Shown piece by piece: positions 10,415 through 64,000 of a stretch of 64,000 nucleotides of DNA. The notes beneath the pieces were generated by a model that was given only the letters and a program-made list of their open reading frames with translations, was not told the DNA's origin and made no database searches. The DNA is from a virus. Each line of letters starts with the position of its first letter. Position 1 is the first letter of the stretch. Made by a program: the position numbers and the translations under genes. The stretch lies in the IMG/VR virus record IMGVR_UViG_3300043410_001256, positions 30,880-94,879 of that record; one strand, given 5' to 3'.

Positions 10415-10418
10415 TATG

Positions 10419-15535: not shown

Positions 15536-15543
15536 AGCATCCT

Positions 15544-15572: not shown

Positions 15573-15585
15573 GAGATTTGATAAT

Positions 15586-42400: not shown

Positions 42401-45400
42401 GGTACACCAGTGTTCCTACAGTTACTTTCAACGGTGGCAATGGAACTGGAGCAAGCGCAGCCGTACAATTAGTACAAGACCCAACAGCTCCTATTACTTC
42501 AACCACACTGAATAAGAAAATACGCAGTGTGTTAACCAAGATCAAATTTGATCGTATCAGTTATACCAGTGAATTAAAATTCTGGAAGCCTTACGAAATT
42601 TATCATCCAGGCGACCTGCTGGTACTAGACGATGTACGCGAACAGTATTTTGCCAATTACACAGAACGTACCTTGCCAAGATTTAGTTTTGTTTACAGAG
42701 TACTCAAGACACTAACTGGTAGAAGTTCAATTGACTTGAACCTGTTTGAAGATGCAACTGTTGTTGAAAAAATTAACGGATCAGATATTGAAAACGCCAA
42801 CGATAGAATTGCCGCTTACTTGCAACCTGGTAGTCCTGAAGTTGCTCAGATTTACAGTTCACCAAACACAATTCGTTTGGTCCCGGGCGCAATTAACGAT
42901 CAAATTATTTCCGTTGCTAAACAATGGAACTCTGTACGTCACAGTGTATTCTATCCTGTACAACACGGTTATCAATATGCCGCAGTTGGTGATGCTAGTT
43001 TGATTGGATTGAGCAAAGACGGTATTGAGTGGACAACAAATCGTATCACTGACACAGGTATTAATGCACGTGATGTGATTTTGTATCGTAACTATACCTG
43101 GGTGGTGGTTGCTAACCAAGGTACAATTTACACCAATGACGACGGCGAAAACTGGGTAAGTGAAAAAGTTAACACTTATAGATTCAGTCCTACCAACGAT
43201 AACGTAAACGGATTGATTCAAGAAAACATTGCACAAACTTTGGACATCACAGGTGGTGCAAGTGCAATGACCACTTATGCAGACTATCTGGTAATAGCTG
43301 GTAACAACGGTTTGATTCTAGCTAATGCACGAGGCAACTCATACTTTGATACAGCATTCAATGGCTGGTACAATGTTAAAGTACAAAATCAATTGATCAT
43401 TCAGAACTATCTGAAATTGATATCTATTGATTTTGGTTATCTAACTGACATTGACGGAACCACATACAAGGTTGAAATTCAACCAGTCAGCGGATACTTT
43501 ACAGAATCTATTTCTGTTGCGGCTCGCACCATGAAGGCAGGTTTTGTAATGACGCTGGGTATCAACGGTGCAATCAATGTGATTACATACAATGCGCTGG
43601 ATGATTACATGCAGGGTTACTTGTATGGCTACAACTATAACAATGGCAAAGCAGGCAACGTTAACTATCCATGGAAGCCACTGAGTGTTCCAATCGACGT
43701 TAAAGGCCTCAATGATGGCTACTCTGGACAGCAGTTAGCCAGTGTTGCAACCAGTGGCACAGACAGCAACTGGATTGTGGTAGTAGGCTCGGGCGGTACG
43801 CTGATATGGAACCAGTTTGGATTGGTCATTGAAGAACAAGAAGGTCGTGCTGAACTGGCACCAGATACAATTGATAAAACTGTAATCAACTATAAGTTTA
43901 ACTCATATGAAAACTTTAGAAAGTTTGATGCAGACAATTTTGTTGCACCATTAACTACTGCATACTTAGAAAACATTGACTTCAATGACATCACCTGGGA
44001 CGGTGAAAAGTTTGTAGTTGTTGGTAACAAGAGTATTATTCTGTGGGGCTACCCAGGATACATGAGCGAAGCCTACATTGAGATGGGCTTCTTAAGTCCT
44101 ACGCTGAGTGTAGCAACACTACGTGAGGCAGCAAGCTGGACTGGTGGATCAGGAATTACTTCACTGGTTATTCAAATTTCAGCTATTGACATTGATGCAA
44201 GATCCATAATGGTTGGCATGAATGCATCTGGTACAGGAATCCCAGCTGATGCAGTGGTGTCTAATGTTGTAGTAGGATTAACTACACATCTAATTACCAT
44301 AAGTTTTGCAGCCACAACTGTTGCTACTGCGTCTGAGCGCAATGTTCTATTCACCACTGGATTGAATTCAGGATTAGCCATTGGAGATAAGATCACAGTA
44401 TCCAACGGATCAACTACATCTCAACTAACAGTTTCACGTGCCGCAGTAAGGGGCGATAGAAAAATCTATGTTAGCGACTACAATCAAAACGTAGATGTTA
44501 ACTGGGCAATTTCTGGCACAGGTGTTCCTGTTAATATACGTGTAAGATTTGTTGGTAAGAAAGCTTCGTTCTCTTGGCAGTTTGCTCCTGGCGTAGAAGA
44601 AAACGTAAACTTGGACTACAGAACAGTTTCAGTTAATACCAAGACTATCACATTGAGCAAGCCATTGTTGACACACGGCGGAAACGTAACAGGTGTGTAC
44701 ACTGGCAACGTGGTTACATTCTACGATCCAACTGGCACAGTGATTTCATTGACTGCAACACAAAACTTGCCAGGCAATGCACAGATCCTGACATTTGATT
44801 CTATTAGAAATCTTGAAGTTGGATACGATCTACAGGCCAATACCAGCTTGGGTATCCAAGAAGGAACAAAGATTACCAGCGTGGTTAACTATAACATTGC
44901 TGGTGTTCTGAGTGGACTGCAAAAGGATATTCCAGCACTGGTGCCAGGAACTGGCTACACAGGAAGTCAAGTACAAGGCAAGAAATTCACCGACACAGTA
45001 GAAGATGCACTGGGCATGGACACAGTTATAACCAGTGAATTCACAGACGATTTATTGGGTGTAAGACCTGAGGACATTACTATTGATGGTGGTAAGTTTA
45101 TTGATACATACTCTAGCCATGCACCAGAAGAACTAGTTCCAGGGCAAGTTATTGACAGCTTGCAAATGAACGTGTTCACAGCCAATATTGTAAATGGACA
45201 ACCAGATTATGGTAATGTAATTGCCTACAAGATCTTCACCGATTACAAGTTGTCAACTACTTACTATCGTTTGGGTGCAAGCAGTACAACCATGTTAACA
45301 CAAGATTTGCGCTTTGACGATACACAAATTGCCGTTGATGATATCAGCAAGTTGCCAGACTCTGGTAGCGTGTGGATCAACGCAGAAAAGATAGTTTATC

Positions 45401-49367: not shown

Positions 49368-49386
49368 TTATAGGGTTATAACTTTG

Positions 49387-49394
49387 CATAAATA
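49387..49394 (+). promoter_or_regulatory. Late promoter CATAAATA before fiber 2
   Basis: CATAAATA followed by TACG lies 29 bases upstream of the fiber 2 ATG at 49416, with CGGAG as ribosome binding site in between. A small hairpin TTATA/TATAA (about 49368-49381) precedes it and may separate it from fiber 1 transcription. Confidence 0.6.
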
Positions 49395-49415
49395 TACGAA
49401 ATCGGAGTCCAGATA

Positions 49416-51992
49416 ATGGCATATAACATAGTAAAATCAGATAACACACCGTTGGCTACAATCAACGATGGTCAAACCAATACCACAGCCACTAGTTTAA
49501 CCTTGGTTGGTAAAAACTTTGCTGGGTATGGTACATTCTTAAATGAGAATTTTGTTAAACTATTAGAACATTTTGCTAGTGCTAACGAACCTGCTCATAA
49601 GATCACTGGACAACTTTGGTACCAAACTTCTACAAAAGTGTTGCAGGTATACAATGGTAGTGCATGGAAATCAATCTCCGGCGCACAATCTGTAGCAGAC
49701 GAGCCCACATACAAAGTTGCAGGCGACTTGTGGTTTGACTCAGTTAACCAACAGTTGAAAGTTTGGTCAGGTGCGGGCTGGGTCGTTATTGGACCAAGCT
49801 TCACATCCACAACTGGTACATCTGGTGCTGTTGCTGATACTGTTATTGACTCCAGTCAGTTCAGTCACGTGGTTGTTAAATTCTTTGTACAGAACCAATT
49901 GGTTGCTGTTCTAAGCAAAGACGCCGCATTCCAACCAGCTACAACCATTCCTGGATTCCCAACAATCAAGCCTGGTTTGAATTTGGCACGTGGTACCAGC
50001 CCTGAACTGATATTCTATGAAAACGCCAACAACGCCAGCTATCTGGGTAGTTTGGCAGCTGATCAGTATTTGACAAAAGACAATGCGTTACTAACCAGTA
50101 AATTGGTTATTCGTAACAACGATGGTATTGAATTAGAAGAACCTTCTGGTACAGTTACCAACTTCCAATTGAACATTAACAACAACAACATTCAATTGCT
50201 AAGTTTGATTCGTGGTAACGGTTTTATTATCCGTACCAAACCAGACAACGCTGGTGGTGCATATCAAACAGTTTTAGCAGTTGACAAGATCACTGGCTTG
50301 ATTACAGTTCTAAACGATCCTACTCAATCAGCTGGTATTGCCACAAAGAACTATGTTGACAACCGCGACGACAACACACGTACAATGTTGTTGAACAACG
50401 TAACTGCTATTAACAGTAACGTCAGTACATTGAAGTCAAACACAGATGTTGTCTACGGTAACGTTCGTACACTACAAAACCACCTAGGATTTAGAAAAGG
50501 TGGAGCAAATAGTCCTGACGATCAGAAGTATACAGAATTGTTTATTACCAACAACGAAAGTCTGGTTGGTAACTTATACACACTATGGAGCAACGTAGCT
50601 ACTATTGTTTCCAACGTATTAACACGCACCGGTGATGGTGGCCCTGGTGGTACAGTTGGATCATCAATGTATGCTAACGTCAGATCAATTCAAGGCCGTG
50701 TGTCTAACTTGGAAAACGATGCTTTCCGACGTGATGGTACATTGACACTAACTGGTTCTATTATTCCATCATCAGAAGACGCTAGAGATGTTGGTAGCAC
50801 TGGTTTCCGTATGCGCGAAGTGTTTGCAACAAAAGCAAACATTGGTGCAATCACAAACTTGGCAAGTATTAACTTAACAGGTGCTCGCGGCGCAACAGAC
50901 AGTTTCACTATTCGTGCTAACCCAGTTACACTCAGCGGTAACCTAGTGTTTGACGATTTGGACGGTGGCACAGCAAGCAATCCTCAGTTGGGTGTGCTAG
51001 GTGATGTTCGTATCACCGGTAGACTACAAACAGTTGGACATATTACTATTCCAAACGAAGCAGGATTTAATGAACAATATAACATTGGATCGTCTAATAC
51101 TTTCCGTTATAACAACATCTATGTTAAAACAGTTAACGCAGACGCAATCACACTAACAGGTACAGGTGGTTTGAGTTCTAGTGCAGATGCTAGTTTTGGT
51201 TCATTAACAATTAATAACCTATTCCCGTCAGCTGACATCACATACGATCTAGGTAAAGGTTCTCCAGCTGGTACTGAGAAACGCTGGTTGAATGTGTATG
51301 CAAGAAACTTTATCAGTGATACTGGTGTAACTTTAACCGCAACTGGTGCTAACAAAGGTATTCGTTGGTATTCAAGCGGCACCAGCGGCGAAGCAGACAT
51401 TGGCACAAGCTCAATGAGATTTGGTGTTGCCTATGTAGGTGGATACAGCAGTCCTCATTTGGTTATGGACAGCAGTGGTATTAAATATCAAACAGTTGGT
51501 GCAAGTCCTCCAAACGATGGCACACAAGATATTGGTACAAGCAGTAGAAAATTTGGTACCGCTTATATCAACAACGTGATTGGTACAGCATCATCAGCAA
51601 AATACGCTGACTTGGCAGAACGCTTTGCAGCCGATGCGGCTTATCCTCCAGGCACATTGTTGAAGATTGGTGGCGAGCATGAAGTTACTCTTGAAGACGC
51701 AATTTGCAGTGCTGAAGTACTAGGTGTGGTAAGTACTCAACCAGCTTATCTAATGAACAGAGAAGCAGGCGATGACAGTACTCATCCTGCTATTGCATTG
51801 TCTGGACGAGTACCGGTTAGAGTTGTTGGCCCAATTAGAAAAGGTCAACGCCTGGTTAGTGCAGGCAATGGATGTGCTAAAGCGGCAAATCCAATGGAAG
51901 CATCTTGGGAAACTGTGATTGGTAGAGCTTTGGAAACAAATGAGTATTCCGAAGAAAAACTAGTCATGTCAATTATTAAGGTAAGTTTATAA
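49416..51992 (+). CDS. Tail fiber protein 2 with conserved C-terminal domain
   Basis: An 858-residue paralogue of fiber 1. The first 125 residues align with it (TLVGKNFAGYGTFLNENF, GQLWYQTS, GDLWFDSVNQQLKVW), and GIATKNYVD recurs at about 309. The shaft is different: two long helical stretches with NVxTLxxN and LNNVTAINSNVSTLKSN patterns, then repeated DIGT(S)S..KFGTAYI and SAxFxxLT.. units (about 500-730). The last 130 residues (SSAKYADLAERFAADAAYPP, then GVVSTQPAYLMN and GRVPVRVVGPIRKGQRLV) match a C-terminal domain common in fibers of aquatic myophages and similar to Peptidase_G2-type chaperone domains, which may release themselves after trimer folding. It has its own late promoter. Confidence 0.8.
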   Translation: MAYNIVKSDNTPLATINDGQTNTTATSLTLVGKNFAGYGTFLNENFVKLLEHFASANEPAHKITGQLWYQTSTKVLQVYNGSAWKSISGAQSVADEPTYKVAGDLWFDSVNQQLKVWSGAGWVVIGPSFTSTTGTSGAVADTVIDSSQFSHVVVKFFVQNQLVAVLSKDAAFQPATTIPGFPTIKPGLNLARGTSPELIFYENANNASYLGSLAADQYLTKDNALLTSKLVIRNNDGIELEEPSGTVTNFQLNINNNNIQLLSLIRGNGFIIRTKPDNAGGAYQTVLAVDKITGLITVLNDPTQSAGIATKNYVDNRDDNTRTMLLNNVTAINSNVSTLKSNTDVVYGNVRTLQNHLGFRKGGANSPDDQKYTELFITNNESLVGNLYTLWSNVATIVSNVLTRTGDGGPGGTVGSSMYANVRSIQGRVSNLENDAFRRDGTLTLTGSIIPSSEDARDVGSTGFRMREVFATKANIGAITNLASINLTGARGATDSFTIRANPVTLSGNLVFDDLDGGTASNPQLGVLGDVRITGRLQTVGHITIPNEAGFNEQYNIGSSNTFRYNNIYVKTVNADAITLTGTGGLSSSADASFGSLTINNLFPSADITYDLGKGSPAGTEKRWLNVYARNFISDTGVTLTATGANKGIRWYSSGTSGEADIGTSSMRFGVAYVGGYSSPHLVMDSSGIKYQTVGASPPNDGTQDIGTSSRKFGTAYINNVIGTASSAKYADLAERFAADAAYPPGTLLKIGGEHEVTLEDAICSAEVLGVVSTQPAYLMNREAGDDSTHPAIALSGRVPVRVVGPIRKGQRLVSAGNGCAKAANPMEASWETVIGRALETNEYSEEKLVMSIIKVSL

Positions 51993-51993
51993 A

Positions 51994-53052
51994 ATGGCAT
52001 ACAGCACCGGCGGCCTCATTGAAGCGCAACACTACAACCAATTGGTTTGGGGTAGTACCACTGGTGGTACATTGGTTACCACCAATAACAACCTAAACTA
52101 TGTATGGGGTCCTGGCTACGGTAACCGCGGGCTTAACCAAGACATGTCTAGCATTGTTGGATTGCCAAATGCCCACCTACTGGTTAACCCAATCAGCGGA
52201 ACAGATGCAGTTACTGGTACAAACTACAACGACGGAGTAGGAACGCTAACACAAGTTGACTCTACGCTTAATGTTAAGAGTCAACAGTGGATTGGTTTGA
52301 TGTCGGCTATCAACAGAGGATTGTATCATCAGAATCAATCAAATGTTGCACTGAGTCCTGCACCTGCATACGGTGGAACAATCAAGGTTATCAGCGGACT
52401 TCAAACTGCTGTTAATAACATTGCTGGTCAAACTGGTACTGCTAGAAACTCAGTGGTTAGAGCAGTTGCTGGTGGTAGTAAGACTTTTAGCTGGATCAGA
52501 GCAACCAGCGCAACCAATGCATCAACTAGTTTCACACGAAGCGTAAGTTGGTCCAATGGTAACAATGCACGTTGGTTTTTTAATGCAGGTGGCAAAATCA
52601 GAATCACAGCATCTGCATCCACTGCAAGTGGCGATAGAAGTGCCGCTATTGTTACAGTAATCAATGACCTCGGTGCTTGCGATTTTGGCTTTAACACCAA
52701 CAGTGGATTTGTTGGTGCTGATCCTGGGACCACAAACACAAACAAGGGTTATTGGAACATAGGCACCAGTTATGTACAGCTAGGAAAAAATCAATCAGTG
52801 TCAGGCTCAACATATCCAGGCACTTATGTAGCTATTTCGGCCAGACTAACAGGTGACACCAGCGATGGCGCAGTTGGATCATTATTAGAAGTTAAAATGG
52901 ACCTGTTTAGTGACTACGGCGGCACAGGTGCAGACCCTCGTTGGGGAACAGATAATATCAACGTGTCAGTTGGATTCAACATAGATGTATTTGATCCTTC
53001 CTATACTGGCGGCATGTTAACACGCAATTGGGCTGATCCAGATTTATTGTAA
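51994..53052 (+). CDS. Fiber-associated structural protein
   Basis: A 352-residue protein that starts one base after the fiber 2 stop. The N-terminus (MAYSTGGLIEAQHYNQLVWG) and the block SVSWSNGNNARWFFNAGGKI followed by RITASASTASGDRS resemble unnamed phage tail proteins in which an (N/D)AR.FFNAGG motif recurs. The C-terminal third is beta-rich with NVSVGFNIDVFDP and ends WADPDLL. No enzymatic motif is visible. Its position after two fibers suggests a fiber tip, a fiber attachment protein or a small adhesin. Direct proof of function is lacking. Confidence 0.65.
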   Translation: MAYSTGGLIEAQHYNQLVWGSTTGGTLVTTNNNLNYVWGPGYGNRGLNQDMSSIVGLPNAHLLVNPISGTDAVTGTNYNDGVGTLTQVDSTLNVKSQQWIGLMSAINRGLYHQNQSNVALSPAPAYGGTIKVISGLQTAVNNIAGQTGTARNSVVRAVAGGSKTFSWIRATSATNASTSFTRSVSWSNGNNARWFFNAGGKIRITASASTASGDRSAAIVTVINDLGACDFGFNTNSGFVGADPGTTNTNKGYWNIGTSYVQLGKNQSVSGSTYPGTYVAISARLTGDTSDGAVGSLLEVKMDLFSDYGGTGADPRWGTDNINVSVGFNIDVFDPSYTGGMLTRNWADPDLL

Positions 53053-53082: not shown

Positions 53083-53394
53083 ATGGAAATTCATAGTCTA
53101 GTTGCAGAAATACGTCAGTCCACTGACATTCAAAGAAACAAGTTAAAACTAAGAGAACAAATCATGGGTGACCTCATGGTTACTCATAATGACGGCCTTT
53201 TCAAAGTCACTCCAGAATTAATTGCTTTCTTATCAGCCTGGGACAGCGATGAACTGTATCTTGAAGATCATTACGGCAATCCTGTTGAAGTAGACAGAGC
53301 TGTGTTACTAGACAGTTGCAAACGTCGATATCAAAAAGTCATGAATCAATGGCATAATCAATATGAACAACTACGCCAAGTTAGAAAAATCTAG
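53083..53394 (+). CDS. Small conserved protein of unknown function
   Basis: A 103-residue, mostly helical, charged protein. It contains IQRNKLKLREQIMGDLMVTH, then NDGLFKVTPELIAFLSAW and DLYLEDHYGNPVEVDR-like sequence, and ends in a basic helix. Similar small proteins occur after fiber genes in other aquatic T4-like phages as I recall, without assigned function. It is the first gene of the overlapping run that leads into the glycosyltransferase and radical SAM block, and its last 32 bases overlap the next gene. A structural or assembly role is a guess. Confidence 0.6.
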   Translation: MEIHSLVAEIRQSTDIQRNKLKLREQIMGDLMVTHNDGLFKVTPELIAFLSAWDSDELYLEDHYGNPVEVDRAVLLDSCKRRYQKVMNQWHNQYEQLRQVRKI

Positions 53395-54133
53395 AGGAGT
53401 ATTGGTTTTTGCTAACAACACAGACACCATTGATTACATAGGTATTGCTAACAAAACAATACAATTAGCAAAGCATCATTTGGGTATTGAAACACTAGTT
53501 GTTACACAAGATTACCAAACCACATACACCAATGCCAGAACTGACATAGACACAGAAAAGTCTGTGCAATGGAATAACTTTGGCCGACATCGTGCATGGG
53601 AAGTCACTCCCTGGGATGAAACGCTGGTGATTGATGCCGACTATTTGGTTACAACACCTCGGCTGCTAACACTATTTGACTCACCGAGCGACTTGGTGCT
53701 GTGCCATCAAAACAACTACCTCTACGAAGATCCAGATCCAAAGTGTTATCTTCCCCCTGTGTGGGCCACAGTGTTCTTTTTTAGGCGCACTGAGCGCAAC
53801 AAACTATTCTTTGATCTAGTTGGCAAAATTGAACGCAACTGGATTTACTACAGAATTTTGTTTGGACTACCATATCGCAACTTTCGTAATGATCTTGCAT
53901 TTGCCATGGCTGAAAGAATCATGCATGGATACCAACTGCCACAGCACACACAGATGCCCTGGGCAATAACCACAATAGAAAAACCCTTGTTGGATATCAA
54001 TATCAACACAGACTGGATGGTGGTGCGAACCAAAGAACGTGCTGACGTATTACCAAGACAAGACCTGCATGTGATGAGCAAGCAGTGGCTACAAAGCGAA
54101 AAGCTAGACCATTTTATTGAGCAGGCATTATGA
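53363..54133 (+). CDS. Glycosyltransferase-like protein 1 (GT-A type)
   Basis: A 256-residue protein with the outline of a GT-A nucleotide-sugar transferase. RGVLVFANNTDTIDYIGIA (residues 11-29) forms the first strand-helix. ETLVVTQD is the second strand. VTPWDETLVIDADYLV (81-96) holds a DxD metal-binding motif (D91, D93). The later LPPVWATVFFFRRTE and the C-terminal part follow the pattern of unnamed marine phage proteins of this kind. The next gene is a paralogue (TPFNETIKVETDLLF). The ATG at 53363 lies inside the previous gene and has no clear ribosome binding site; an AGAGGAG sequence lies downstream of it at about 53392. The acceptor is unknown and could be a virion protein, a lipopolysaccharide or DNA. 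Confidence 0.55.
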   Translation: MNNYAKLEKSRGVLVFANNTDTIDYIGIANKTIQLAKHHLGIETLVVTQDYQTTYTNARTDIDTEKSVQWNNFGRHRAWEVTPWDETLVIDADYLVTTPRLLTLFDSPSDLVLCHQNNYLYEDPDPKCYLPPVWATVFFFRRTERNKLFFDLVGKIERNWIYYRILFGLPYRNFRNDLAFAMAERIMHGYQLPQHTQMPWAITTIEKPLLDININTDWMVVRTKERADVLPRQDLHVMSKQWLQSEKLDHFIEQAL

Positions 54134-54963
54134 CAGTTGGCGTAATATCCATGGCACAGAACAACAGCACAACCAATTATTTGAGGTTGGCATATCTACA
54201 GCGGTTAAGTCTAAAACTGGTTTCACCTGACATTCCTTATGCTGTGGTAACAGACCAAGCAAGTCTTGACAGCATACCGCAGGAACATGCACAGATGTTT
54301 GATCATGTGATACTGTTAACCACAGACTGGGCACAGGATCAAGAATGGAAACAAAGAAACGATTGGCAACTGGCAGCACTAACACCATTCAATGAAACTA
54401 TAAAAGTAGAAACTGATCTATTGTTCACACGTGCAATTGATCACTGGTTTACAATGTTAAGACACAGAGATGTTGTACTAAGTCTAGGATGTAGAAATTA
54501 CCTAGGTGACCCAGCCGCCAGTAGAAAATATAGACAAGTGTTTGACAGCAACAATTTACCAGACACATACTCTGGATTAATGTACTGGCGCAACACAGTA
54601 ACCGCAAACAACTTCTTTCAATTGTGCAAAAGAATTTATAAATTTTGGGATCTAGTAAAGCAGGATCTTGCTTACTGCGATGATCCTGGCAGTAACGATT
54701 TAGTTTTTTCTATAGCCGCAAGATGCATTGGAGAAGAGTTAGTCACACTACCGGCAGCAGACTTTTTCAACATCACGCACATGAAGCCTGCTATAAATGG
54801 AAAAGTAGAACGCAAGAACTGGTTGAACGAACTGCACATAGAATTAGATCCACCTTATATTAGAGTAAACGGACAAGACCAAACTTACCCATTTCATTAT
54901 CAAAATAAAAATTGGGTCACAGACGAAATGATTAGAAAATATGAACACGCCATCAGAACTTGA
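54130..54963 (+). CDS. Glycosyltransferase-like protein 2
   Basis: A 277-residue paralogue of the preceding protein. TVGVISMAQNNSTTNYLRLA opens the domain, PYAVVTDQ is the second strand, and LTPFNETIKVETDLLFT (84-100) is equivalent to the DxD segment, with E94-T-D96 in place of D-x-D. That replacement may change metal use or activity. The C-terminal half contains NDLVFSIAARCIGEE and PYIRVNGQDQTYPFHYQNKN. It starts in an ATGA overlap with protein 1, so the two are translationally coupled and may act as a pair. No close family name is known to me. The call rests on fold-like pattern and context. Confidence 0.5.
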   Translation: MTVGVISMAQNNSTTNYLRLAYLQRLSLKLVSPDIPYAVVTDQASLDSIPQEHAQMFDHVILLTTDWAQDQEWKQRNDWQLAALTPFNETIKVETDLLFTRAIDHWFTMLRHRDVVLSLGCRNYLGDPAASRKYRQVFDSNNLPDTYSGLMYWRNTVTANNFFQLCKRIYKFWDLVKQDLAYCDDPGSNDLVFSIAARCIGEELVTLPAADFFNITHMKPAINGKVERKNWLNELHIELDPPYIRVNGQDQTYPFHYQNKNWVTDEMIRKYEHAIRT

Positions 54964-55324
54964 AATTGCCATTGCTGAGTTTTTTCAAATACAGGAAAAT
55001 CTCAAGCAACACCCTGTGGCCAATCAATATAGATGTTACTATCGAAAAGATGGATCTATAATGGATATAGTAATAGGTCCACCTTGGCCAGAACTAGATT
55101 TTGACTACATAGACATAACCAAATCACAAGCAGACCAGTGTACCAATACCACTACTGTTGTGAACAAAGAATTGGTTTTTGTTGACTTCTCGGAAGGATA
55201 TGTAGTAAAATTGCTTGAGGATTCAGATGGCGAACATACTGCCGTTACCAATCACATGGCCATTATTGTAGAACCCAACGAAGCATATAACGATGTCACA
55301 AGATACACAAAAAAATATACTTGA
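54941..55324 (+). CDS. Unknown 127-aa protein in the modification cassette
   Basis: A small acidic protein with no recognised motif. The centre reads ANQYRCYYRKDGSIMDIVIG then PPWPELDFDYIDITKSQADQ, a beta-rich pattern, and there are two cysteines (C32 and a second near residue 69). It overlaps the preceding gene by 23 bases and the next by 32, so it is clearly part of the same translational unit. It might be an accessory subunit or a substrate-binding partner for the neighbouring enzymes. Nothing in the sequence decides this. Confidence 0.55.
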   Translation: MNTPSELEIAIAEFFQIQENLKQHPVANQYRCYYRKDGSIMDIVIGPPWPELDFDYIDITKSQADQCTNTTTVVNKELVFVDFSEGYVVKLLEDSDGEHTAVTNHMAIIVEPNEAYNDVTRYTKKYT

Positions 55325-56207
55325 TATTGCAGATCTTGATGTGATCTTCTTAACCTATGACGAGCCTAAAAAAGATGAGTTTTGGATTAAAGTTAAAAAC
55401 ATGGTACCGTGGGCCAAACGTGTGGATGGCGTCAAGGGCTCGGATGCGGCGCATAAAGCGGCAGCAGATGCAAGTGATACCGACCGTTTCATCTTGGTGG
55501 ATGGTGACAATATACCGGATCCAGGATTTTTTAATCTACAGCTGGCGCTGGATGATACTAATCGCGACTGTGTTTTTCGTTGGCGGGCTCGTAATCATAT
55601 CAATGGATTGATGTATGGCAATGGCGGTCTTAGTTGCTGGACCAAGAAGTTTGTACAAGAAATGCGTACACACGAAAACACAGATGGACGCAATGAGACC
55701 TTGGTAGAGTTTTGTTTTGCTCCTAACTACTGGAGCATGTATGATTGCTATTCTGTAACATATCCTAATCAAACACCATTCCAGGCCTGGAGAGCAGGAT
55801 TCCGTGAAGGAGTTAAGATGTGTTTGGATCGTGGCGCACGACCAAGTCTGAGCGAATTCAAACAAAGGGTACACAACAGGAATCTAGACAATCTCAGCAT
55901 CTGGCAAAATGTAGGAATGGATGTTGACAATGGAGCATGGGCCATTGCTGGCGCTAAACAAGGCACATGGAAAACCATGCTTGCAGATTGGGATTATACT
56001 CTGGTGCAAGACTTTGCTGAACTAGAACATCTATGGAACACAGAAGTAAAAACACGTGACCCGTTGGAAATGATTGACCATATGGGACAGGATCTGCACT
56101 ATCAACTGGATCTACCAATGGCATGTATGACAGTTGCACAGAGCAAGTTTTTCAAACATCATTATCGCAGTAATTTTGTAAACAAAGGAATAATGGTTCG
56201 TGACTAG
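55293..56207 (+). CDS. Glycosyltransferase-like protein 3
   Basis: A 304-residue protein that begins like a GT-A enzyme. DLDVIFLTYDEPKKDEFW (15-32) is the first strand and nucleotide-binding loop, VPWAKRVDGVKGSDAAHKAA (39-58) is the following helix, and DRFILVDGDNIPDPGFF (64-80) has the DxD-type motif D70-G-D72 with the strand in front of it. The rest (GLMYGNGGLSCWTKKFVQEM, YNQ-type sequences, WRAGFREGVKM) is characteristic of an unnamed phage protein family I have seen near such cassettes. It is different from the paired proteins at 53363 and 54130. It overlaps the radical SAM gene RS1 by 8 bases. Confidence 0.6.
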   Translation: MSQDTQKNILDIADLDVIFLTYDEPKKDEFWIKVKNMVPWAKRVDGVKGSDAAHKAAADASDTDRFILVDGDNIPDPGFFNLQLALDDTNRDCVFRWRARNHINGLMYGNGGLSCWTKKFVQEMRTHENTDGRNETLVEFCFAPNYWSMYDCYSVTYPNQTPFQAWRAGFREGVKMCLDRGARPSLSEFKQRVHNRNLDNLSIWQNVGMDVDNGAWAIAGAKQGTWKTMLADWDYTLVQDFAELEHLWNTEVKTRDPLEMIDHMGQDLHYQLDLPMACMTVAQSKFFKHHYRSNFVNKGIMVRD

Positions 56208-57570
56208 TGATTTCAAAGCCGCCGCAGAGGAAATGCAGGCCCGACTAGGCCCTGCACTCTGCCTGGCTAAATGGCAACAGGTTAGTTTACACCTGGGCAC
56301 TGGCATGACCAATAGTTGTTATCATCCACCACTGCACAAGATTCCCGTGGAGTTACTTGCAGACAATCCCAGTGCGCTACACAACACACCTCACAAGAAA
56401 CAACAGCGTGTGTTCATGTTAAAGAATGAACGTCCTAAAGAATGCTCCTACTGCTGGAGTGCAGAAAACAACCAACAACTCAGTGATAGACACTATCGCT
56501 CAGGCGAGCCATGGGCCGCTGAATATTATGACAAGATTGTAAATAGTACTGGAGAAGAAGATGTTGTCCCCTCTTATGTTGAAGTTAATTTTAGCAATGT
56601 TTGCAATCTTAAATGTAGTTATTGTAGTCCTCAGTTTTCCAGCCAGTGGGCGGCAGAGGTTAACGTACACGGTGCTTACCCTACTAGCAATCGCCATAAT
56701 GACCCTGAGTACTTTACAGGCACTAGACGCAATATTCGACACAGAGAAGACAACCCCTATGTTGACGCCTTCTGGGCCTGGTGGCCCGAACTCTACCCGC
56801 GTCTACAACATCTAAGACTCACTGGTGGTGAACCATTACTAGACTACAACACCTACAGAGTGTTTGAGTACGTGCTTGCACTACCCAAGCCAGATCTACA
56901 TCTAGACGTAACCAGCAACTTCAGCGTAGACTACAAGACCTTTGACAAATACATTGACTATGTTCAACGATTGTGCAAAACACAGATTGAACATTTCATG
57001 CAGTATGTTAGCCTTGACACAGGCGTGCCACATCAAGCTGAATATATTCGTTCTGGTCTTAACTGGCACACACTCACCAGAAACGTAGATCGTTATCTAA
57101 CTGACGTGCCAGAAAAAAACAGCCTTACCTTTATTGTAACAATAAACAACCTGAGCATTGTAGGGCTACAAGATCTATTGGACTACATACTGGAACTACG
57201 TTCCAAACACAGTCATACCTATCAGCGTGTGTGGTTTGATACACCATTGTTGCGTCAACCCGCCTGGCAGAGCATACAAACACTTACGCCTGCTTACCAA
57301 TTAAAAATGGAACAGGTAATTGACTTCATGCGCGAAAACGAATCCAATGACAGCTTTGTTGGCTTTAGAGATTATGAAATACAGCGCATGGAACGTAATC
57401 TTGTCTGGATGAAAGAACCACAAACACCTGAACGTCTAGCACGTGACCGTGCAGACTTTTATAGATTTTTCAATGAACATGATCGCAGACGTGAAACAGA
57501 TTTCTTAACAACGTTTCCTGAAATGCGTGAGTTCTGGAGCATGTGCAAATACTATGCCGAAACAGAATAA
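56200..57570 (+). CDS. Radical SAM protein with N-terminal twitch-type domain, RS1
   Basis: First of five consecutive radical SAM genes. It is read from GTG at 56200, because AGGA lies 10 bases upstream. The internal ATG at 56233 follows GGAA without room for a binding site. Cysteines C21, C40, C82 and C85 (CLAKWQQ, NSCYHPP, ECSYCW) form an N-terminal SPASM/twitch-like cluster site, in which the usual CC pair has become CY. The core has FSNVCNLKCSYC, CxxxCxxC at C135, C139 and C142, then LRLTGGEPLLD, the GGE motif. The C-terminus ends in the motif FLTTFPEMREFW that recurs in this series. The reaction is unknown. Family expectation is a peptide or protein modification. It overlaps RS2 by 17 bases. 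Confidence 0.8.
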   Translation: MTSDFKAAAEEMQARLGPALCLAKWQQVSLHLGTGMTNSCYHPPLHKIPVELLADNPSALHNTPHKKQQRVFMLKNERPKECSYCWSAENNQQLSDRHYRSGEPWAAEYYDKIVNSTGEEDVVPSYVEVNFSNVCNLKCSYCSPQFSSQWAAEVNVHGAYPTSNRHNDPEYFTGTRRNIRHREDNPYVDAFWAWWPELYPRLQHLRLTGGEPLLDYNTYRVFEYVLALPKPDLHLDVTSNFSVDYKTFDKYIDYVQRLCKTQIEHFMQYVSLDTGVPHQAEYIRSGLNWHTLTRNVDRYLTDVPEKNSLTFIVTINNLSIVGLQDLLDYILELRSKHSHTYQRVWFDTPLLRQPAWQSIQTLTPAYQLKMEQVIDFMRENESNDSFVGFRDYEIQRMERNLVWMKEPQTPERLARDRADFYRFFNEHDRRRETDFLTTFPEMREFWSMCKYYAETE

Positions 57571-58891
57571 CGAAACAGACTTAGAATACAAACGCAGAGT
57601 GATTGACATCAAGAGTGAATCATTCTGTGGTGCCAAGTGGTACAATGCTACCATCTGGCTAGGCAGTGGACAGACAACCAGTTGTCACCATCCATTGCCA
57701 CATGCAATTGATCCGGAAGAGATCAAAACAAATCCCAGTGCTATTCACAACACGCCCAGAAAGAAATTTGAGCGTGAGCAAATGCAACGGGGCGAACGAC
57801 CAGCAGGCTGTGACTACTGCTGGAAGATTGAAGACATGGACAAGGATGCAATATCCGACCGTGTGTACAAAACAGTAATACACTCAGATGAGGATTTAGA
57901 AAATGCTTACACAAAACCAGCCACAGACAATGTCAACCTTCGCACGTTGGAAATTGCTTTTGACAGAACTTGTCAGTTTGCTTGCAGTTATTGTAACCCT
58001 GCTTTTAGTAGTACTTGGGTTAATGACATACGTAAAAACGGACCCTACACTAACTTGGTATCAGACGGGCGCAATCATTACACTCACCCTCATGATCATA
58101 GTCAACTTTATAAATTCGGTGAGACTAATCCGTATGTGGAGGCTTTTTTCCAGTGGTGGGAATCAGACCTCCACAAGAGTCTTAAAGAACTCCGAATCAC
58201 TGGAGGAGAACCACTCATGTCAGGACACACCTGGCAACTCATTGACTGGTTCAAACAAAACCAAGGACAAAGCCAAACACGGCTAGCCATTAACACAAAC
58301 CTTGGCAAGGAAGTGGACGTTGACCGTTTGTTAGCGTCAACACAGGGCATTGAGCTAGATATCTATACTAGTTGCGAATCAATTGGCCTACACGCAGAGT
58401 ACATACGTGATGGCCTAGATTGGAAAGCATGGCTAGACAATGTAGAAAAGATTGCACAAAGCGGCATACGTGGTCTCCATGTTATGTGTACCATCAACGC
58501 ATTGTGCTTGCCTGGATTACCTGTGTTCTTGTCTTACATGATGGCATTGAAGAAAACATATGGTAGAGACTTTCCTAGCATGAGTTTCAATATCTTGCGC
58601 TTTCCGAGTTTCCAGAGTGTGTATGTATTACCACTAGAAGACCGCAAGTGGTATGCAAAAAGCATTGCAGGATTCATAGTTGATTACAAAGGCGATAGCC
58701 TGCTACACGAGCATGAAATCAATCAGCTGACTCGCTTGCATGACTATTTGCAAGAGCCAGTTGTGGGGCCTGACTTGGCAAGAATGCGTAACGATTTCAA
58801 ACAGTTTTACACACAATACGATCAACGCAGAGGAAAGAACTTTATAGATACTTTCCCTGAGTTTAAGGAATTCTATGAGCAAATACCCTAA
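57554..58891 (+). CDS. Radical SAM protein with N-terminal twitch-type domain, RS2
   Basis: A 445-residue protein counted from ATG at 57554. The frame opens at 57527, but the longer form would lie deep inside RS1. The N-terminal cysteines are C25 (FCGAKWYN), C44 (TSCHHPLPH), C86 and C89 (GCDYCW), equivalent to RS1. The core motif FDRTCQFACSYCNP gives C140, C144 and C147, and ELRITGGEPLMSG is the GGE motif. The strand SQTRLAINTNLG follows. FIDTFPEFKEFYEQ ends the protein, the same C-terminal motif as RS1. RS1 and RS2 are the closest pair of the series by N-terminal sequence (SxIHNTPxKK in both). The last 17 bases overlap RS3. Confidence 0.8.
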   Translation: MPKQNNETDLEYKRRVIDIKSESFCGAKWYNATIWLGSGQTTSCHHPLPHAIDPEEIKTNPSAIHNTPRKKFEREQMQRGERPAGCDYCWKIEDMDKDAISDRVYKTVIHSDEDLENAYTKPATDNVNLRTLEIAFDRTCQFACSYCNPAFSSTWVNDIRKNGPYTNLVSDGRNHYTHPHDHSQLYKFGETNPYVEAFFQWWESDLHKSLKELRITGGEPLMSGHTWQLIDWFKQNQGQSQTRLAINTNLGKEVDVDRLLASTQGIELDIYTSCESIGLHAEYIRDGLDWKAWLDNVEKIAQSGIRGLHVMCTINALCLPGLPVFLSYMMALKKTYGRDFPSMSFNILRFPSFQSVYVLPLEDRKWYAKSIAGFIVDYKGDSLLHEHEINQLTRLHDYLQEPVVGPDLARMRNDFKQFYTQYDQRRGKNFIDTFPEFKEFYEQIP

Positions 58892-60182
58892 GGACTACAC
58901 ATACAACACACGAATTCCTATTCGTGGAGACTTTCACAACATGCCGGAACGGCATCAAGACCTGCTGACTACAGACAAACACTTTTGCATGATACCATGG
59001 TTGCACATGCACGCCTTTCCTGATGGTCGTGCGTATCCTTGCTGTATGGGCGAGTACAATATGCCTATTGGCAACCTAAAAGAACACACAATGAAGGAAG
59101 TCTGGAATAGCGAAGGCATGCGAAAGATGCGTGTAAACATGCTTAATGGCAAACCCAGCAGAGAGTGTGGTCGTTGCTATGAGCAGGAAAAAGCAGGCTT
59201 TGTTAGTATGCGTCACAGTAGCAGTCAAAACTTTGGACACAACATTGGCCTTGTAGATACTACAAATGAAGATGGTAGTTTGGATTGGTTTGAACTGCGC
59301 TACTATGATATACGTTTTTCTAATGTGTGCAATTTCCGTTGCCGCAGTTGTGGTAGCATTTTCAGCAGTAACTGGTACAACGATGAAGTAAAGTTGTTTG
59401 GACCAAAGCGCCAGCCAAGAATCATGTATGCTGGTCGCCATGAAGAAGACATGTGGGAACAGATGCAAGAGCATATTCCGCATCTAGAACAAATCTACTT
59501 TGCTGGTGGCGAACCCTTGATCATGGAAGAACACTATCGCTTGCTCAATGAGCTGGTCAAACGTGAAATGTTTCATGTGCGATTGATCTACAATTCAAAT
59601 TTTAGCAAACTGGCCTATAAAGACCAAGACGTACTTGAACTGTGGAAGAAGTTTAGATCAGTCAGCGTTGGTGCAAGTCTTGATGCCAGCGGCAGTCGTG
59701 CAGAGTACATTCGCAAAGGTACAGACTGGGAAGAAATTGTAGAAAACAGAAAACGCATGTTGGCCGTGTGTCCAAACGTGGACTTTTACATCAGTGCCAC
59801 AGTTAGTATTTTTAATGCATTTCACGTTGTAGACTTTCATCGCGAATGGATTGATTTAGGATTGATCAAACCACAGGATATCAACATCAACATTCTACAA
59901 AGCCCAGAGTGGTATCGTGTGGATGTGTTGCCCAAAGAAATCAAAGACCAGATACGACAAAAAGTCAAAGAGCATGTGGAGTGGCTAACACCACAGGACA
60001 AACTCACACGTGCTACCAGCGGATTCAATGGACTGATAAGTTTTATGGATGCCGAGGACCAGACTGAAAAATACATCAAAGAATTTTTCAAACGCACACA
60101 CGAGTTAGATAACCTGCGTGGAGAAAACTTTTACGATACATTCCCTGAGCTTGCAGGTTTGAGAAAATATGACATTACCTAA
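58875..60182 (+). CDS. Radical SAM protein with N-terminal twitch-type domain, RS3
   Basis: A 435-residue protein with the clearest permuted layout. Residues 38-101 are a full SPASM/twitch-like motif of the kind usually found after the core: CMIPWLHMHAFPDG (C38), RAYPCCMGEYNMPIGNL (C56, C57), EVWNSEGMRKMR, then ECGRCYEQEKAGF (C98, C101). The core follows: FSNVCNFRCRSCGSIFSSNW, with C152, C156 and C159, then YFAGGEPLIMEEHYRLL. SVGASLDASGSRAEYIRKG is the sixth-strand region, and FYDTFPELAGLRKY is the series C-terminal motif. It overlaps RS4 by 14 bases. The substrate is unknown. Confidence 0.82.
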   Translation: MSKYPKDYTYNTRIPIRGDFHNMPERHQDLLTTDKHFCMIPWLHMHAFPDGRAYPCCMGEYNMPIGNLKEHTMKEVWNSEGMRKMRVNMLNGKPSRECGRCYEQEKAGFVSMRHSSSQNFGHNIGLVDTTNEDGSLDWFELRYYDIRFSNVCNFRCRSCGSIFSSNWYNDEVKLFGPKRQPRIMYAGRHEEDMWEQMQEHIPHLEQIYFAGGEPLIMEEHYRLLNELVKREMFHVRLIYNSNFSKLAYKDQDVLELWKKFRSVSVGASLDASGSRAEYIRKGTDWEEIVENRKRMLAVCPNVDFYISATVSIFNAFHVVDFHREWIDLGLIKPQDININILQSPEWYRVDVLPKEIKDQIRQKVKEHVEWLTPQDKLTRATSGFNGLISFMDAEDQTEKYIKEFFKRTHELDNLRGENFYDTFPELAGLRKYDIT

Positions 60183-61386
60183 AACCATATGCATGTTGCC
60201 TTGGATCAGCATTGAAGCCAGTCCAATTGGAACAATACGTCCGTGCTGTCTTGCACAGGATGAAATCGTTGATGATGATGGTACTAGGTACGACCTGCTG
60301 ACCTCCACACTGGAAGATGCTTACAACAGTCAGTACATGCAAAACCTACGCAAACAGTTTCTCGCAGGAGAACAACCTGCTACTTGCAGTAGATGCTGGA
60401 CCGAGGAACGTGCAGGCAAAGACAGCAAACGCATTCACAGTCAGCGTAGACTGCACCACTTAGAAAGCAAGATTGATTGGTACAATGAAAAACCCAATCA
60501 ACTATGGTTCTTGGATCTCAAGCTGGGCAACATCTGTAATCTAAAATGTCGTATATGCGGCAGTTGGAGCAGTAGTAAATGGGCTGAAGAAGATATGAAA
60601 ACTTCAGCTCACGGAGACAAGAAACAGCACAGCGCATATCGTTGGCTCAAACAAGGTGCATGGCCACGCACCACACTGACATTTTGGGATAACTTAAAAA
60701 GTCTATTGCCCAACATCAAGTATATAGAATTCACAGGCGGTGAGCCCTGGCTCATACAAGAGCATTGGGAGTTGCTGAAGTTTGCAGTTGAAGAAGGTCA
60801 CAGCAATCACATAGACATACACTACAACACCAATGCTACGGTAGAGCTAGGTGAGCACACACTGGTATGGAATCATTTTGGTCGTGTGGATATTGCTTTC
60901 AGTATAGACAACGTGCATGATCGTTTTGAAGTTGAAAGATACGGTGCCAAGTGGAGTCTAGCAAACAAGATCATTGACGATGTGCATTCTGCTAAACAGT
61001 CTCATGCACCCAACATTACCACGCAACTGTGTTTTACTATCAACATTCAAAATGTTTACTATATAGATGAGCTACTGACCTGGGCAGATACCAAACCCTT
61101 TGGCAGTATCTATTTTAACATGTTGCACAGTCCAGACCATATGAACATTCAGTACATGACACCCAATGCAAAAGCACTGGTGCTGGATAAACTAAAGTCT
61201 GTTGACTGGAGAACTAACTTTTATAAAAATGAAATACAAAACGTGATTAATTTTATAGAACAAGGTCCTGGCAGTGATGGACAAGAGTTTGTGTCACGTA
61301 TGAAAAAAATGGATGCATACAGAAAACAGAACTTTGTAGATACACATCCAGAAATAGCCAAGGCAATGGGTTATGGACAAGCCTAA
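60169..61386 (+). CDS. Radical SAM protein with N-terminal twitch-type domain, RS4
   Basis: A 405-residue protein from ATG at 60169. The N-terminal cluster site is ICMLPWISIEASPIG (C8), IRPCCLAQDE (C26, C27), LRKQFLAGEQPATCSRCWTEE (C73, C76). The core motif LGNICNLKCRICGSWSSSKW gives C123, C127 and C130, then YIEFTGGEPWLIQEHW. The strand HYNTNAT is conserved, as is DIAFSIDNVHDRFEVERYG. The C-terminal motif is FVDTHPEIAKAMGY. The start lies within the last 14 bases of RS3, and the stop overlaps RS5 by 14 bases. Compared with RS3 it lacks the 30-residue N-terminal lead. Confidence 0.82.
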   Translation: MTLPKTICMLPWISIEASPIGTIRPCCLAQDEIVDDDGTRYDLLTSTLEDAYNSQYMQNLRKQFLAGEQPATCSRCWTEERAGKDSKRIHSQRRLHHLESKIDWYNEKPNQLWFLDLKLGNICNLKCRICGSWSSSKWAEEDMKTSAHGDKKQHSAYRWLKQGAWPRTTLTFWDNLKSLLPNIKYIEFTGGEPWLIQEHWELLKFAVEEGHSNHIDIHYNTNATVELGEHTLVWNHFGRVDIAFSIDNVHDRFEVERYGAKWSLANKIIDDVHSAKQSHAPNITTQLCFTINIQNVYYIDELLTWADTKPFGSIYFNMLHSPDHMNIQYMTPNAKALVLDKLKSVDWRTNFYKNEIQNVINFIEQGPGSDGQEFVSRMKKMDAYRKQNFVDTHPEIAKAMGYGQA

Positions 61387-62668
61387 GAATCTTTGCATGG
61401 CACCATGGGTACACACATACCTAAGTCCTCAGACTGAACGTAGAATGTGTTGTGCAAGTCGCGAACCTGCACAGAACTTTCAACAGTATATTGACACCAG
61501 TGCCGGCACTGGCCGATACATACCTATCACACTGGACGAACACTGGAACGGTGAGCACATGCAATCCGTTAGACGTAGAATGATGGCCGGCGAAACACTA
61601 CCAGAGTGCGAAGTATGCAATGACAAACTGTTGAATACATCTGTGTATAGAGATTACTTTAATCAATTGTTTAGTCACAAATGGGATGAAGTAATTGAAT
61701 CCACCGCCGCAGACGGCACAACAACCATGTTGCCTGTAAGCTGGGACTATCGTTTTAGTAACCTTTGCAATTTCAAATGTCGCATGTGTGGCGACATGTT
61801 GAGCAGTGCCTGGGAAAGTGAACAGCGCCAGCACAACATGATTGATCATACTAATCCTAAAAATGCATGGATGCAACCAGCAGTGAGAAAAGAAATATCA
61901 CAGTTTCAAGATACCATTGTTGAACAAGAATTTGCACGTGCAGTTGAAGAACATCGTGTAGAAGAAGTCTATTGGGTTGGTGGCGAACCATTGATGTACG
62001 AACAACATTGGAAATACATGCGCCGTATCATTGAACTAGGAGATGGACACAAAGTTTATGCTAGATATAATACTAATCTTAGCCGTGTTTCTTATCACGG
62101 TTGGAATCTCTATAAAGATATTTTGTCTGGGTTACGAGATTGGCAGATATGTGCGAGTATCGACGGAACCGGCGCCATTGGCGAATACATCCGCACAGGA
62201 TTAAACTACGAACAATGGTTAGACAACTTCAAACAAGGACTGGAAATAAAACAGCACCGCAGACAAATGAGATTGGATTTTACTCTTACTTTGCCTGGCA
62301 TGTTTGAAGTAGAAAATATACAACGTCTAGCACGAGAACTAGACGTAGATGTTTTAGCAAAGGTTGTGTTTAGTTTTAGCCCGGACATTGTTATGTCACC
62401 GCTGGCACTACCCAGACATCTATTGGATGAATGGGTAGATGAAATCTTGCACGTCATTGATAAAGGCGCACTACGTGACACGATGGTCCAGTTAAAAACT
62501 AGACCAACCTTTGCTGAACAATGGCCTGACTCATACAACGAAGCCATTGTAAAAGGAAAACAACGTATGTTACAATTAGAAAGCATACGCACACAGCCAA
62601 TCACAATGGACAAGATATTAGAGCAAAGACCAGAAGTACACAAATGGTGGAGAAGCATTGATGCATGA
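61373..62668 (+). CDS. Radical SAM protein with N-terminal twitch-type domain, RS5
   Basis: The last of the five, 431 residues. N-terminal cysteines: LCMAPWVHTYLSPQ (C8), RRMCCASREP (C26, C27), EHWNGEHMQSVRRRM, LPECEVCNDK (C79, C82). Core: FSNLCNFKCRMCGDMLSSAW with C132, C136 and C139, then VYWVGGEPLMYEQHW. ASIDGTGAIGEYIRTG is the sixth-strand region. The end is drifted relative to the others (ILEQRPEVHKWW). A GGAG site near its 3' end (about 62650) serves the next gene, which it overlaps by 8 bases. Confidence 0.82.
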   Translation: MDKPKNLCMAPWVHTYLSPQTERRMCCASREPAQNFQQYIDTSAGTGRYIPITLDEHWNGEHMQSVRRRMMAGETLPECEVCNDKLLNTSVYRDYFNQLFSHKWDEVIESTAADGTTTMLPVSWDYRFSNLCNFKCRMCGDMLSSAWESEQRQHNMIDHTNPKNAWMQPAVRKEISQFQDTIVEQEFARAVEEHRVEEVYWVGGEPLMYEQHWKYMRRIIELGDGHKVYARYNTNLSRVSYHGWNLYKDILSGLRDWQICASIDGTGAIGEYIRTGLNYEQWLDNFKQGLEIKQHRRQMRLDFTLTLPGMFEVENIQRLARELDVDVLAKVVFSFSPDIVMSPLALPRHLLDEWVDEILHVIDKGALRDTMVQLKTRPTFAEQWPDSYNEAIVKGKQRMLQLESIRTQPITMDKILEQRPEVHKWWRSIDA

Positions 62669-63725
62669 TGTTAGAATAGTTTTAAGTAGCGACACCGGCA
62701 CCATTGACTACACCATAAAAGCGCATGACAATCAGCTTGCACGTGACTGGCTGGTTGCATTAGAAAACATACTCAAAGCTGGGCTCACGCTTAACAAGAA
62801 CTTTTGTTTCTTGGGTTTTCCCAACACACCAAGAGACCTAGACTTTTTGTGTAATAAACTAAACCATGCCATTAGAGAAATAAACCTACACGACTGGCAA
62901 CAATACGGACTAGAACCTTATGTGATTGAAGAACACTTTGTTCCAGACGCAGTAAGATTTGGACCTGAGTACCCAAAGCCTCCGGGCATGAGTGACAGCA
63001 GTTTGTTTTTAAGCGTCAAGCACGATATACTGAATCGCATACACAATCACTTTGAAAGGCTGCAGGGCACAGTTGAAAATGAAAGTGCATATCACAAACA
63101 CGCTCCTTTCAATGTACGCAGAGCCATTGGACATCTTAACACAGTATGTCATGAGATTGAAAGTTTAATACTAAGCTATAGAAAACACGTGCTATTGCCT
63201 GAATGGACACGCCCAAGTCAGATTACAACATTTCACAGCGCACCTCGTTATGAACTAACATCACAGCACAAGCAGTTGTTCAAACAGAATGCGTACAATA
63301 AAAGATTCGGCGAAGTCTACATGCACTGGGCACAAATAGGCAAAACTCTGTTTGAAGTGTTTCGCGACGAACACGCACCCAAGCTGGATACTGCCACCTG
63401 CGAAGCTATTACACATCTCAAATACTACAGTGGCGAGTTTGATATTGAATGGGGACGAGATCTACTTGAAGGACAGTTTCCCTGGCATGACAAACAGATG
63501 CAGGATTTCCGTCAATGGTTGGCTGATAACCAGTTTGATATCAATGACGAAAATCTATGTTTAGGTTACGCACCAATTGGACAAGTGGAAATATTAAAAT
63601 CCTTTGGCACAGAAAATCCTGCAGAAGTCTGGCGAATACTGGAACAGCACCTAAACATTCAATCAATTGAATGCGGTAGCACAAAGATCGACTACAACTA
63701 TACCTGGAGAGATCAAGATGTATGA
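62661..63725 (+). CDS. Unknown protein following the radical SAM series
   Basis: A 354-residue protein starting at ATG 62661 with GGAG 8 bases upstream. The frame could also open at a TTG (62658) directly in front, which is less likely. It has no cysteine motif, no P-loop and no signal peptide. Visible segments are VRIVLSSDTGTIDYTIKAHD, LGFPNTPRDLDFLCNKLNHA and EEHFVPDAVRFGPEYPKPPG, then a His-rich stretch (NRIHNHFERLQGTVE, ESAYHKHAPFNVRRAIGHLN) that could bind metal. YSGEFDIEWGRDLL and LCLGYAPIGQVE follow. The mixed alpha/beta character suggests an enzyme or a binding partner. It is coupled to RS5 by an 8-base overlap and to the next gene by another 8-base overlap. Function unknown. Confidence 0.6.
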   Translation: MHDVRIVLSSDTGTIDYTIKAHDNQLARDWLVALENILKAGLTLNKNFCFLGFPNTPRDLDFLCNKLNHAIREINLHDWQQYGLEPYVIEEHFVPDAVRFGPEYPKPPGMSDSSLFLSVKHDILNRIHNHFERLQGTVENESAYHKHAPFNVRRAIGHLNTVCHEIESLILSYRKHVLLPEWTRPSQITTFHSAPRYELTSQHKQLFKQNAYNKRFGEVYMHWAQIGKTLFEVFRDEHAPKLDTATCEAITHLKYYSGEFDIEWGRDLLEGQFPWHDKQMQDFRQWLADNQFDINDENLCLGYAPIGQVEILKSFGTENPAEVWRILEQHLNIQSIECGSTKIDYNYTWRDQDV

Positions 63726-64000
63726 TATGTGTATAGTATCTCTTGGCAGTGACGAACATCTTGTAGAGCAGTTGAATACACAGTATCCTCATGCTCGCAC
63801 AACTCGTTTCTATAGAAGCATGTTTTCCACAGTGATACGTTGTATTGAATACGCACGTACCAGTCATGTATGGATTGTGTTGTCCTGTAGCGATTGTAAA
63901 AACTTTGACTTTAACTATGTGCCTGCCCCTTGGGAAGAAAACCAAATACACGTATGGGCGGCAGGAACTCAAAAGTACGGAGACATACTGCTGGTGCCCA
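63718..64000 (+). CDS. Unknown protein, cut by right window edge
   Basis: The frame opens at ATG 63718 inside the end of the preceding gene and runs 94 codons to the right edge. The visible part reads MYDMCIVSLGSDEHLVEQLN, then HARTTRFYRSMFSTVIRCIE, YARTSHVWIVLSCSDCKNFD, FNYVPAPWEENQIHVWAAG and TQKYGDILLVP. I recall proteins with the same W-in-context pattern in aquatic phage genomes, but without a function. The alternating strand and helix with SHVWIVLSCSD is compatible with a GT-A-like fold. The rest of the gene would be needed to name it. It extends the run of overlapping genes beyond this window. Confidence 0.55.
   Translation, partial: MYDMCIVSLGSDEHLVEQLNTQYPHARTTRFYRSMFSTVIRCIEYARTSHVWIVLSCSDCKNFDFNYVPAPWEENQIHVWAAGTQKYGDILLVP

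Follow-up and report, generated by a model that had tools for sequence, protein, structure and literature searches.

A conserved tandem block of five N-terminal twitch radical SAM genes lies downstream of phage tail-fibre genes

We analyzed a 64,000-nucleotide stretch of viral DNA (hereafter the window), which comprises bases 30880-94879 of the 94,879-base IMG/VR record IMGVR_UViG_3300043410_001256 and whose right edge is the end of that record. Positions 56200-62668 are occupied, on the plus strand, by five consecutive genes for radical S-adenosylmethionine (SAM) proteins, RS1 to RS5, all of them open, full-length and arranged head to tail. RS1-RS5 are kept together with three glycosyltransferase-like proteins (GTa, GTb, and GTc) and a partner protein, U355, directly downstream of tail-fibre genes. 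Scores refer to the NCBIfam model NF033640 (N_Twi_rSAM, twitch domain-containing radical SAM protein; curated cut-off 170 bits).

56200..57570, plus strand: RS1, N-terminal twitch radical SAM protein; GTG start; NF033640 316 bits
57554..58891, plus strand: RS2, N-terminal twitch radical SAM protein; NF033640 293 bits
58875..60182, plus strand: RS3, N-terminal twitch radical SAM protein; NF033640 426 bits; Pfam SPASM (38-102) and Radical_SAM
60169..61386, plus strand: RS4, N-terminal twitch radical SAM protein; NF033640 339 bits; Pfam SPASM (8-77)
61373..62668, plus strand: RS5, N-terminal twitch radical SAM protein; NF033640 297 bits

The encoded proteins comprise 456 (RS1), 445 (RS2), 435 (RS3), 405 (RS4), and 431 (RS5) amino acids. 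RS2 would reach 454 residues from its longest start (GTG 57527), but ATG 57554 is most likely the true one, because the orthologue in L012, the closest relative among the loci listed, starts likewise. Open reading frames (ORFs), NF033640 scores, and motifs confirm the original prediction of five full-length radical SAM genes in tandem, each with a CxxxCxxC and a GGE motif. The predicted head-to-tail order on the plus strand also stands, while the abutment "without any gap" is refined to overlaps of 14-17 nucleotides (RS1/RS2 and RS2/RS3, 17; RS3/RS4 and RS4/RS5, 14). GTc/RS1 and RS5/U355 overlap by 8 nucleotides each. This overlapping arrangement would be consistent with a single, translationally coupled operon. 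Terminator-like sites in the region are near expectation (13 found, 10.1 expected from shuffling).

All five proteins pass the NF033640 cut-off with 293-426 bits over nearly their full length. The radical SAM core is recognized by Pfam in RS1-RS5 (above the curated cut-off in three); RS3 and RS4 additionally match SPASM near the N-terminus. Each protein combines CxxxCxxC and GGEP motifs with four N-terminal cysteines, and judged by these residues each has the cysteines for one SAM-binding cluster and one N-terminal auxiliary cluster. In RS1, C21, C40, C82, and C85 together with C135, C139, and C142 are present in 37/37 orthologues, as is GGEP. The RS2 equivalents (C34, C53, C95, C98 and C149, C153, C156) and GGEP are found in 38/38. 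RS3 retains its seven cluster cysteines, C57, and GGEP in 38/38, RS4 its cluster cysteines in 38/38 and GGEP in 37/38, and RS5 its cluster cysteines in 39/40 rows and GGEP in 38/40. The sole cysteine exception comes from L057, whose RS5 is broken into two ORFs (10001-10585 and 10621-11292) by a frameshift either in the virus or in the assembly. Loss of cluster residues in most relatives, which the original prediction had named as evidence against it, is not seen: the cysteines are essentially invariant across the 37-40 orthologues per class. A search of solved structures with a radical SAM profile returned similarity in the core domain only, to viperin, MoaA, YydG, and other proteins, which is uninformative on substrate.

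In a quick tree of 112 proteins, every phage RS class forms one side of a branch. Support for these branches in the Shimodaira-Hasegawa-like approximate likelihood ratio test is 99 for RS1, 92 for RS2, 99 for RS3, and 95 for RS4; for RS5 it is 46 alone and 100 with two bacterial RS5 sequences. The array L070, from a member of the Bacteriovoracaceae, contributes sequences that attach to every one of the five classes. The class-separating branches and the presence of L070 members in every class argue that RS1-RS5 are old paralogues and not a recent expansion. Pairwise ratios of non-synonymous to synonymous substitution rates (dN/dS) are 0.01-0.16 where synonymous sites are unsaturated, indicating purifying selection. 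The retention of five non-redundant paralogue classes together in most loci, at dN/dS of ~0.01-0.16, supports the earlier suggestion of a multi-step pathway.

Related loci were gathered by scans with RS3, RS5, and an RS3 alignment, and all locus rates given here are conditional on discovery via RS3 or RS5. The matches listed contain 117 distinct loci after removal of near-duplicates. At least 112 of them come from viral contigs, and phage-like contigs that had been binned into bacterial metagenome-assembled genomes (L060-L064) account for the other candidates. All five classes occur in 95/117, with the order RS1-RS2-RS3-RS4-RS5 in 82, RS4 and RS5 swapped in 12, and an extra RS2 in one. A tandem arrangement beyond chance follows from these 95 loci, 94 of which show the window order or its RS4/RS5-swapped form. 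RS3 and RS4 are fused in L009 and L052. Many loci have other genes, further radical SAM genes included, inserted between the core genes, and L015 carries a gene for an Fe-S assembly protein (PF01883) between RS1 and RS2. A NifU-type Fe-S scaffold was not found in the related virus records. L024 harbors a B12-binding-type radical SAM gene (7028-8794) inside its cassette, the nearest models being PhpK-like and RiPP (ribosomally synthesized and post-translationally modified peptide) C-methyltransferases. Across 19 virus records we count 5-16 NF033640 genes per record, and 12 radical SAM genes have been reported in one genome (PMC5332604); the earlier statement that such genes occur singly in phages is thus not supported. 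In an isolated-phage collection, RS3 gave only weak matches, in Vibrio phages, and U355 gave none.

The region upstream of RS1 contains the following features, for which expect values (E) are given where available.

46785-49367, plus strand: tail fibre protein; PHROGs tail fibre matches, E down to 1e-39
49416-51992, plus strand: paralogue of the preceding tail fibre protein (tail-fibre region 46785..53052)
51994-53052, plus strand: Fib1; no PHROGs match; upstream of the cassette in 65/68 loci with enough upstream sequence
53083..53394, plus strand: C103, small conserved protein; no PHROG match; upstream of GTa in 65/68 loci
53363..54133, plus strand: GTa, glycosyltransferase-like; weak similarity of the L012 GTa to the window GTb, E 4e-9
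54130..54963, plus strand: GTb, GT8/glycogenin-like glycosyltransferase; a 24-orthologue profile matches glycogenin-1 structures, E 1.5e-4
54941..55324, plus strand: S127, small protein, variable among relatives; orthologues in many loci, not all
55293..56207, plus strand: GTc, probable GT-A-fold transferase with an invariant DGDN motif

Reading upstream from RS1, GTc is the first core gene encountered in 99/99 loci, and the order GTa-GTb-GTc is kept in 87/87 (the position counts of 87 for GTa-GTb-GTc and of 68 for Fib1 and C103 include near-duplicate loci). GTa has no match in direct Pfam and PHROG searches. The AlphaFold2 model of GTc (predicted local distance difference test score, pLDDT, 79.9) gives weak fold matches mostly to GT-A glycosyltransferases and nucleotidyltransferases (best E 9e-3). 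Just before the tail-fibre genes, one long ORF (27403-45663) spans 6086 amino acids.

Two further genes follow RS5.

62661..63725, plus strand: U355, conserved partner with no recognized fold; downstream in 81/91 loci with downstream sequence
63667..64000, plus strand: U667, truncated by the record end so that the N-terminal part remains; GTc-like domain in the full protein; full-length orthologue L012:14782-16161

The AlphaFold2 model of U355 has a pLDDT of 88.6, and a fold search against the PDB returned no match at E <= 0.001. As a guess, a metal site could be formed by the His, Glu, and Asp residues that are invariant in U355. Residues 232-425 of the full-length U667 orthologue match GTc (E 4e-17). 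Genes for sugar-tailoring enzymes recur further downstream: among the 91 loci whose downstream sequence is available, a NodU-type carbamoyltransferase is present in 84, a GDSL-like protein in 56, a DegT aminotransferase in 37, an epimerase in 28, and an amidinotransferase in 23, and L012 appears on reading its sequence to carry DegT-like and epimerase-like genes. In L040, a minus-strand gene (14771-15811) is similar to arginine:glycine and inosamine-phosphate amidinotransferases (E ~1e-14) and related to a gene in a cluster of the bacterial genome G004.

All five RS classes, together with GTc and U355 homologues, also occur on chromosomes of Bdellovibrionota, some copies being near ABC-2 exporter, DegT, and carbamoyltransferase genes. 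The genome scan was seeded with the RS3 alignment because a mixed-class alignment was too divergent; the bacterial sampling is accordingly biased to RS3-like genes. L070 belongs to genome G001, and 30/114 genomes of the same phylum have NF033640 matches at E <= 1e-40. GTc homologues occur in 6 genomes and U355 homologues in 6, all within these 30 (hypergeometric probability of a six-of-six co-occurrence 2e-4, shared ancestry ignored). The 7 GTc homologues with a measured distance all lie <=2 kb from an NF033640 gene. For U355 homologues the distance is 0.5-8 kb in three genomes, the measurements covering homologues that share a contig with an NF033640 gene. Reading of the L070 sequence places its set among ordinary chromosomal genes. 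A region of G004 combines NF033640 genes with DegT, carbamoyltransferase, ABC-2 transporter, and amidinotransferase genes and a PqqD-S74 fusion, and a G033 region has MBOAT, an ABC-2 transporter, PqqD, and an S74 protein. Such PqqD-S74 fusions or separate S74 and PqqD genes are seen in two Bdellovibrionota radical SAM clusters (L219, 5739-6536; L236, 8600-9058 and 9063-9374), which also have prepilin-like neighbors with weak N_methyl matches. As a shared fibre marker S74 is of little use: it is found near the bacterial clusters and was not clearly present in the virus records searched.

Gene context favors a sugar or glycan route tied to tail fibres or the cell surface over a free peptide. We propose, with a probability of about 0.42, that RS1-RS5 form the core of an operon for surface modification, linked to the tail fibres, by which a modified sugar or glycan is placed on fibres. 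This reading draws on the near-fixed order in 94/117 loci, the constant place of GTc, the old paralogue classes, the intact cysteines, and purifying selection. It draws likewise on the tail-fibre genes upstream, the resemblance of GTb to glycogenin and, weakly, of GTc to GT-A folds, the sugar-tailoring genes downstream in relatives, the restriction of Bdellovibrionota GTc and U355 homologues to NF033640 genomes, and the G004 gene set. Each RS enzyme would carry out a different radical reaction (oxidation, epimerization, bond formation, or deoxygenation), acting on a sugar or on an intermediate that bears one, and the five reactions would be successive steps. The carbamoyltransferase, DegT aminotransferase, epimerase, and amidinotransferase beside the operon in relatives may add lineage-specific groups. 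GTa-GTc could then transfer the product, most likely onto the adjacent fibre proteins, and the decoration might alter receptor binding or mask the virion.

Several points weigh against a sugar route. Peptides and proteins are the usual targets of SPASM/twitch radical SAM enzymes, and we know of no characterized member of the N-terminal twitch family. PqqD in some bacterial clusters fits protein substrates. The evidence that assigns GTa-GTc as transferases is weak, and the substrate, the reactions, and the acceptor named above are inferred. No carbamoyltransferase was found in the record of the window or in the 72-kb record of L012, both of which are probably fragments.

The RS proteins resemble the SPASM/twitch peptide maturases of RiPP pathways in having a radical SAM core and an auxiliary cluster in a SPASM/twitch-like domain, but here this domain is N-terminal. 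The absence of an evident precursor peptide gene is borne out: the block has no intergenic space, and in L012 the downstream genes U355 and U667 overlap too. PqqD (PF05402) had no match in the 19 virus records, where positive controls were detected, although divergent RiPP recognition elements could be missed. A RiPP system in the strict sense was dropped, since neither a precursor gene nor PqqD was found in the phages.

A rather doubtful alternative, yet one to be taken seriously, is that the RS enzymes act directly on amino acids in a protein of the virion, the neighboring tail fibre or Fib1 being most likely, by epimerization, crosslinks, methylation, or other changes, with the glycosyltransferases acting on the same protein or independently. 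The usual substrates of SPASM/twitch enzymes, the position of the operon next to fibre genes, and the two bacterial clusters with PqqD, a substrate-binding domain, and S74 fibre-chaperone domains speak for it. The missing PqqD and the unclear status of S74 in the virus records speak against it, and it leaves the conserved sugar-tailoring neighbors unexplained.

We consider it unlikely that the pathway instead remodels host surface polysaccharide during infection, for example excluding competing phages. The ABC-2 exporters and MBOAT in bacterial clusters of the same gene families would suit such a role, in which cyanophage surface-polysaccharide genes (PMC3037559) and pelagimyophage glycosyltransferases (PMC7029224) have been read. 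The phage block is, however, tightly and conservedly linked to tail-fibre genes and not to host-takeover genes, and a non-exhaustive search recognized no exporter inside the phage cassettes.

Phages do use glycosyltransferases on DNA, and reading of the L012 sequence suggests thymidylate-synthase-like and dihydrofolate-reductase-like ORFs nearby. That the enzymes and glycosyltransferases make a hypermodified DNA base nevertheless seems very improbable, given the position beside fibre genes and the shared gene set beside ABC-2 exporters on bacterial chromosomes; a search for a TET/JBP-type base oxidase, run with no working positive control, gave no match in the 19 virus records. Although the RS genes are paralogues lying side by side and relatives often have additional NF033640 copies, we regard recent tandem duplicates or decaying relics lacking distinct roles as practically ruled out by the long branches between five non-redundant classes, each conserved across phages and kept together, the invariant cysteines, and the strong purifying selection (dN/dS ~0.01-0.16).

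Returning to the glycan reading, we tentatively suggest a hitherto unrecognized pathway common to T4-like aquatic phages and Bdellovibrionota, in which five N-terminal twitch enzymes act in sequence, with U355 and GTc, building a radically modified glycan or glycoprotein on fibres or the cell surface. NF033640 names single proteins with no assigned function; the operon described here conserves five distinct classes of them. In pelagimyophages, the host recognition cluster (Zaragoza-Solas et al. 2020, PMC7029224) contains tail fibres, GT8 glycosyltransferases, and inserted radical SAM cassettes. Its place is between VrlC and gp14, neither of which we identified in the record of the window. Compared by description, it shares with our loci tail fibres, GT8 (the GTb assignment being weak), and radical SAM genes, but is described as hypervariable and non-syntenic, in contrast to a block of near-fixed order and five orthologue classes. 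The T4-like genome TARA_ERS488813_N000010 (Nishimura et al. 2017, PMC5332604), with its 12 radical SAM genes and Fe-S assembly genes, read as Fe-S metabolism, is alike by description in its many radical SAM genes, and the Fe-S gene within the L015 cassette is a further likeness; no five-class operon is described there. Cyanophages and jumbo phages have surface-polysaccharide clusters (PMC3037559, PMC7824862) that share phage-borne glycosyltransferases and sugar-modifying genes, with a carbamoyltransferase in some cyanophages, but the texts of these papers mention no radical SAM and do not describe the clusters as joined to a fixed, fibre-linked operon. In the open-access literature, with subscription papers mostly and preprints wholly outside this scope, we came across no account of the five-class operon or of its counterpart in Bdellovibrionota. 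The conserved operon thus appears undescribed, though priority is not certain, and radical SAM cassettes in T4-like phages are already on record.

That five non-redundant radical SAM enzymes keep a near-fixed order across ~100 viral loci strongly suggests an important pathway of uncharacterized chemistry, and RS1-RS5, GTc, and U355 provide a defined gene set for in vitro work. Our reading predicts unusual modifications on virions or host surfaces, of a kind likely to escape standard proteomics, and connects the tail-fibre regions of phages with chromosomal clusters of Bdellovibrionota.

Elsewhere in the window, two more radical-SAM-like genes (10987-11919 and 13635-14522, minus strand) fall outside NF033640 by score; they flank and overlap an SbcC-like gene (11879-13648). 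A structural-region protein (807-1904, minus strand) is 43% identical to proteins of PA5oct-like Pseudomonas phages, and since those phages have genomes of ~286 kb, the record may be a piece of a larger phage.

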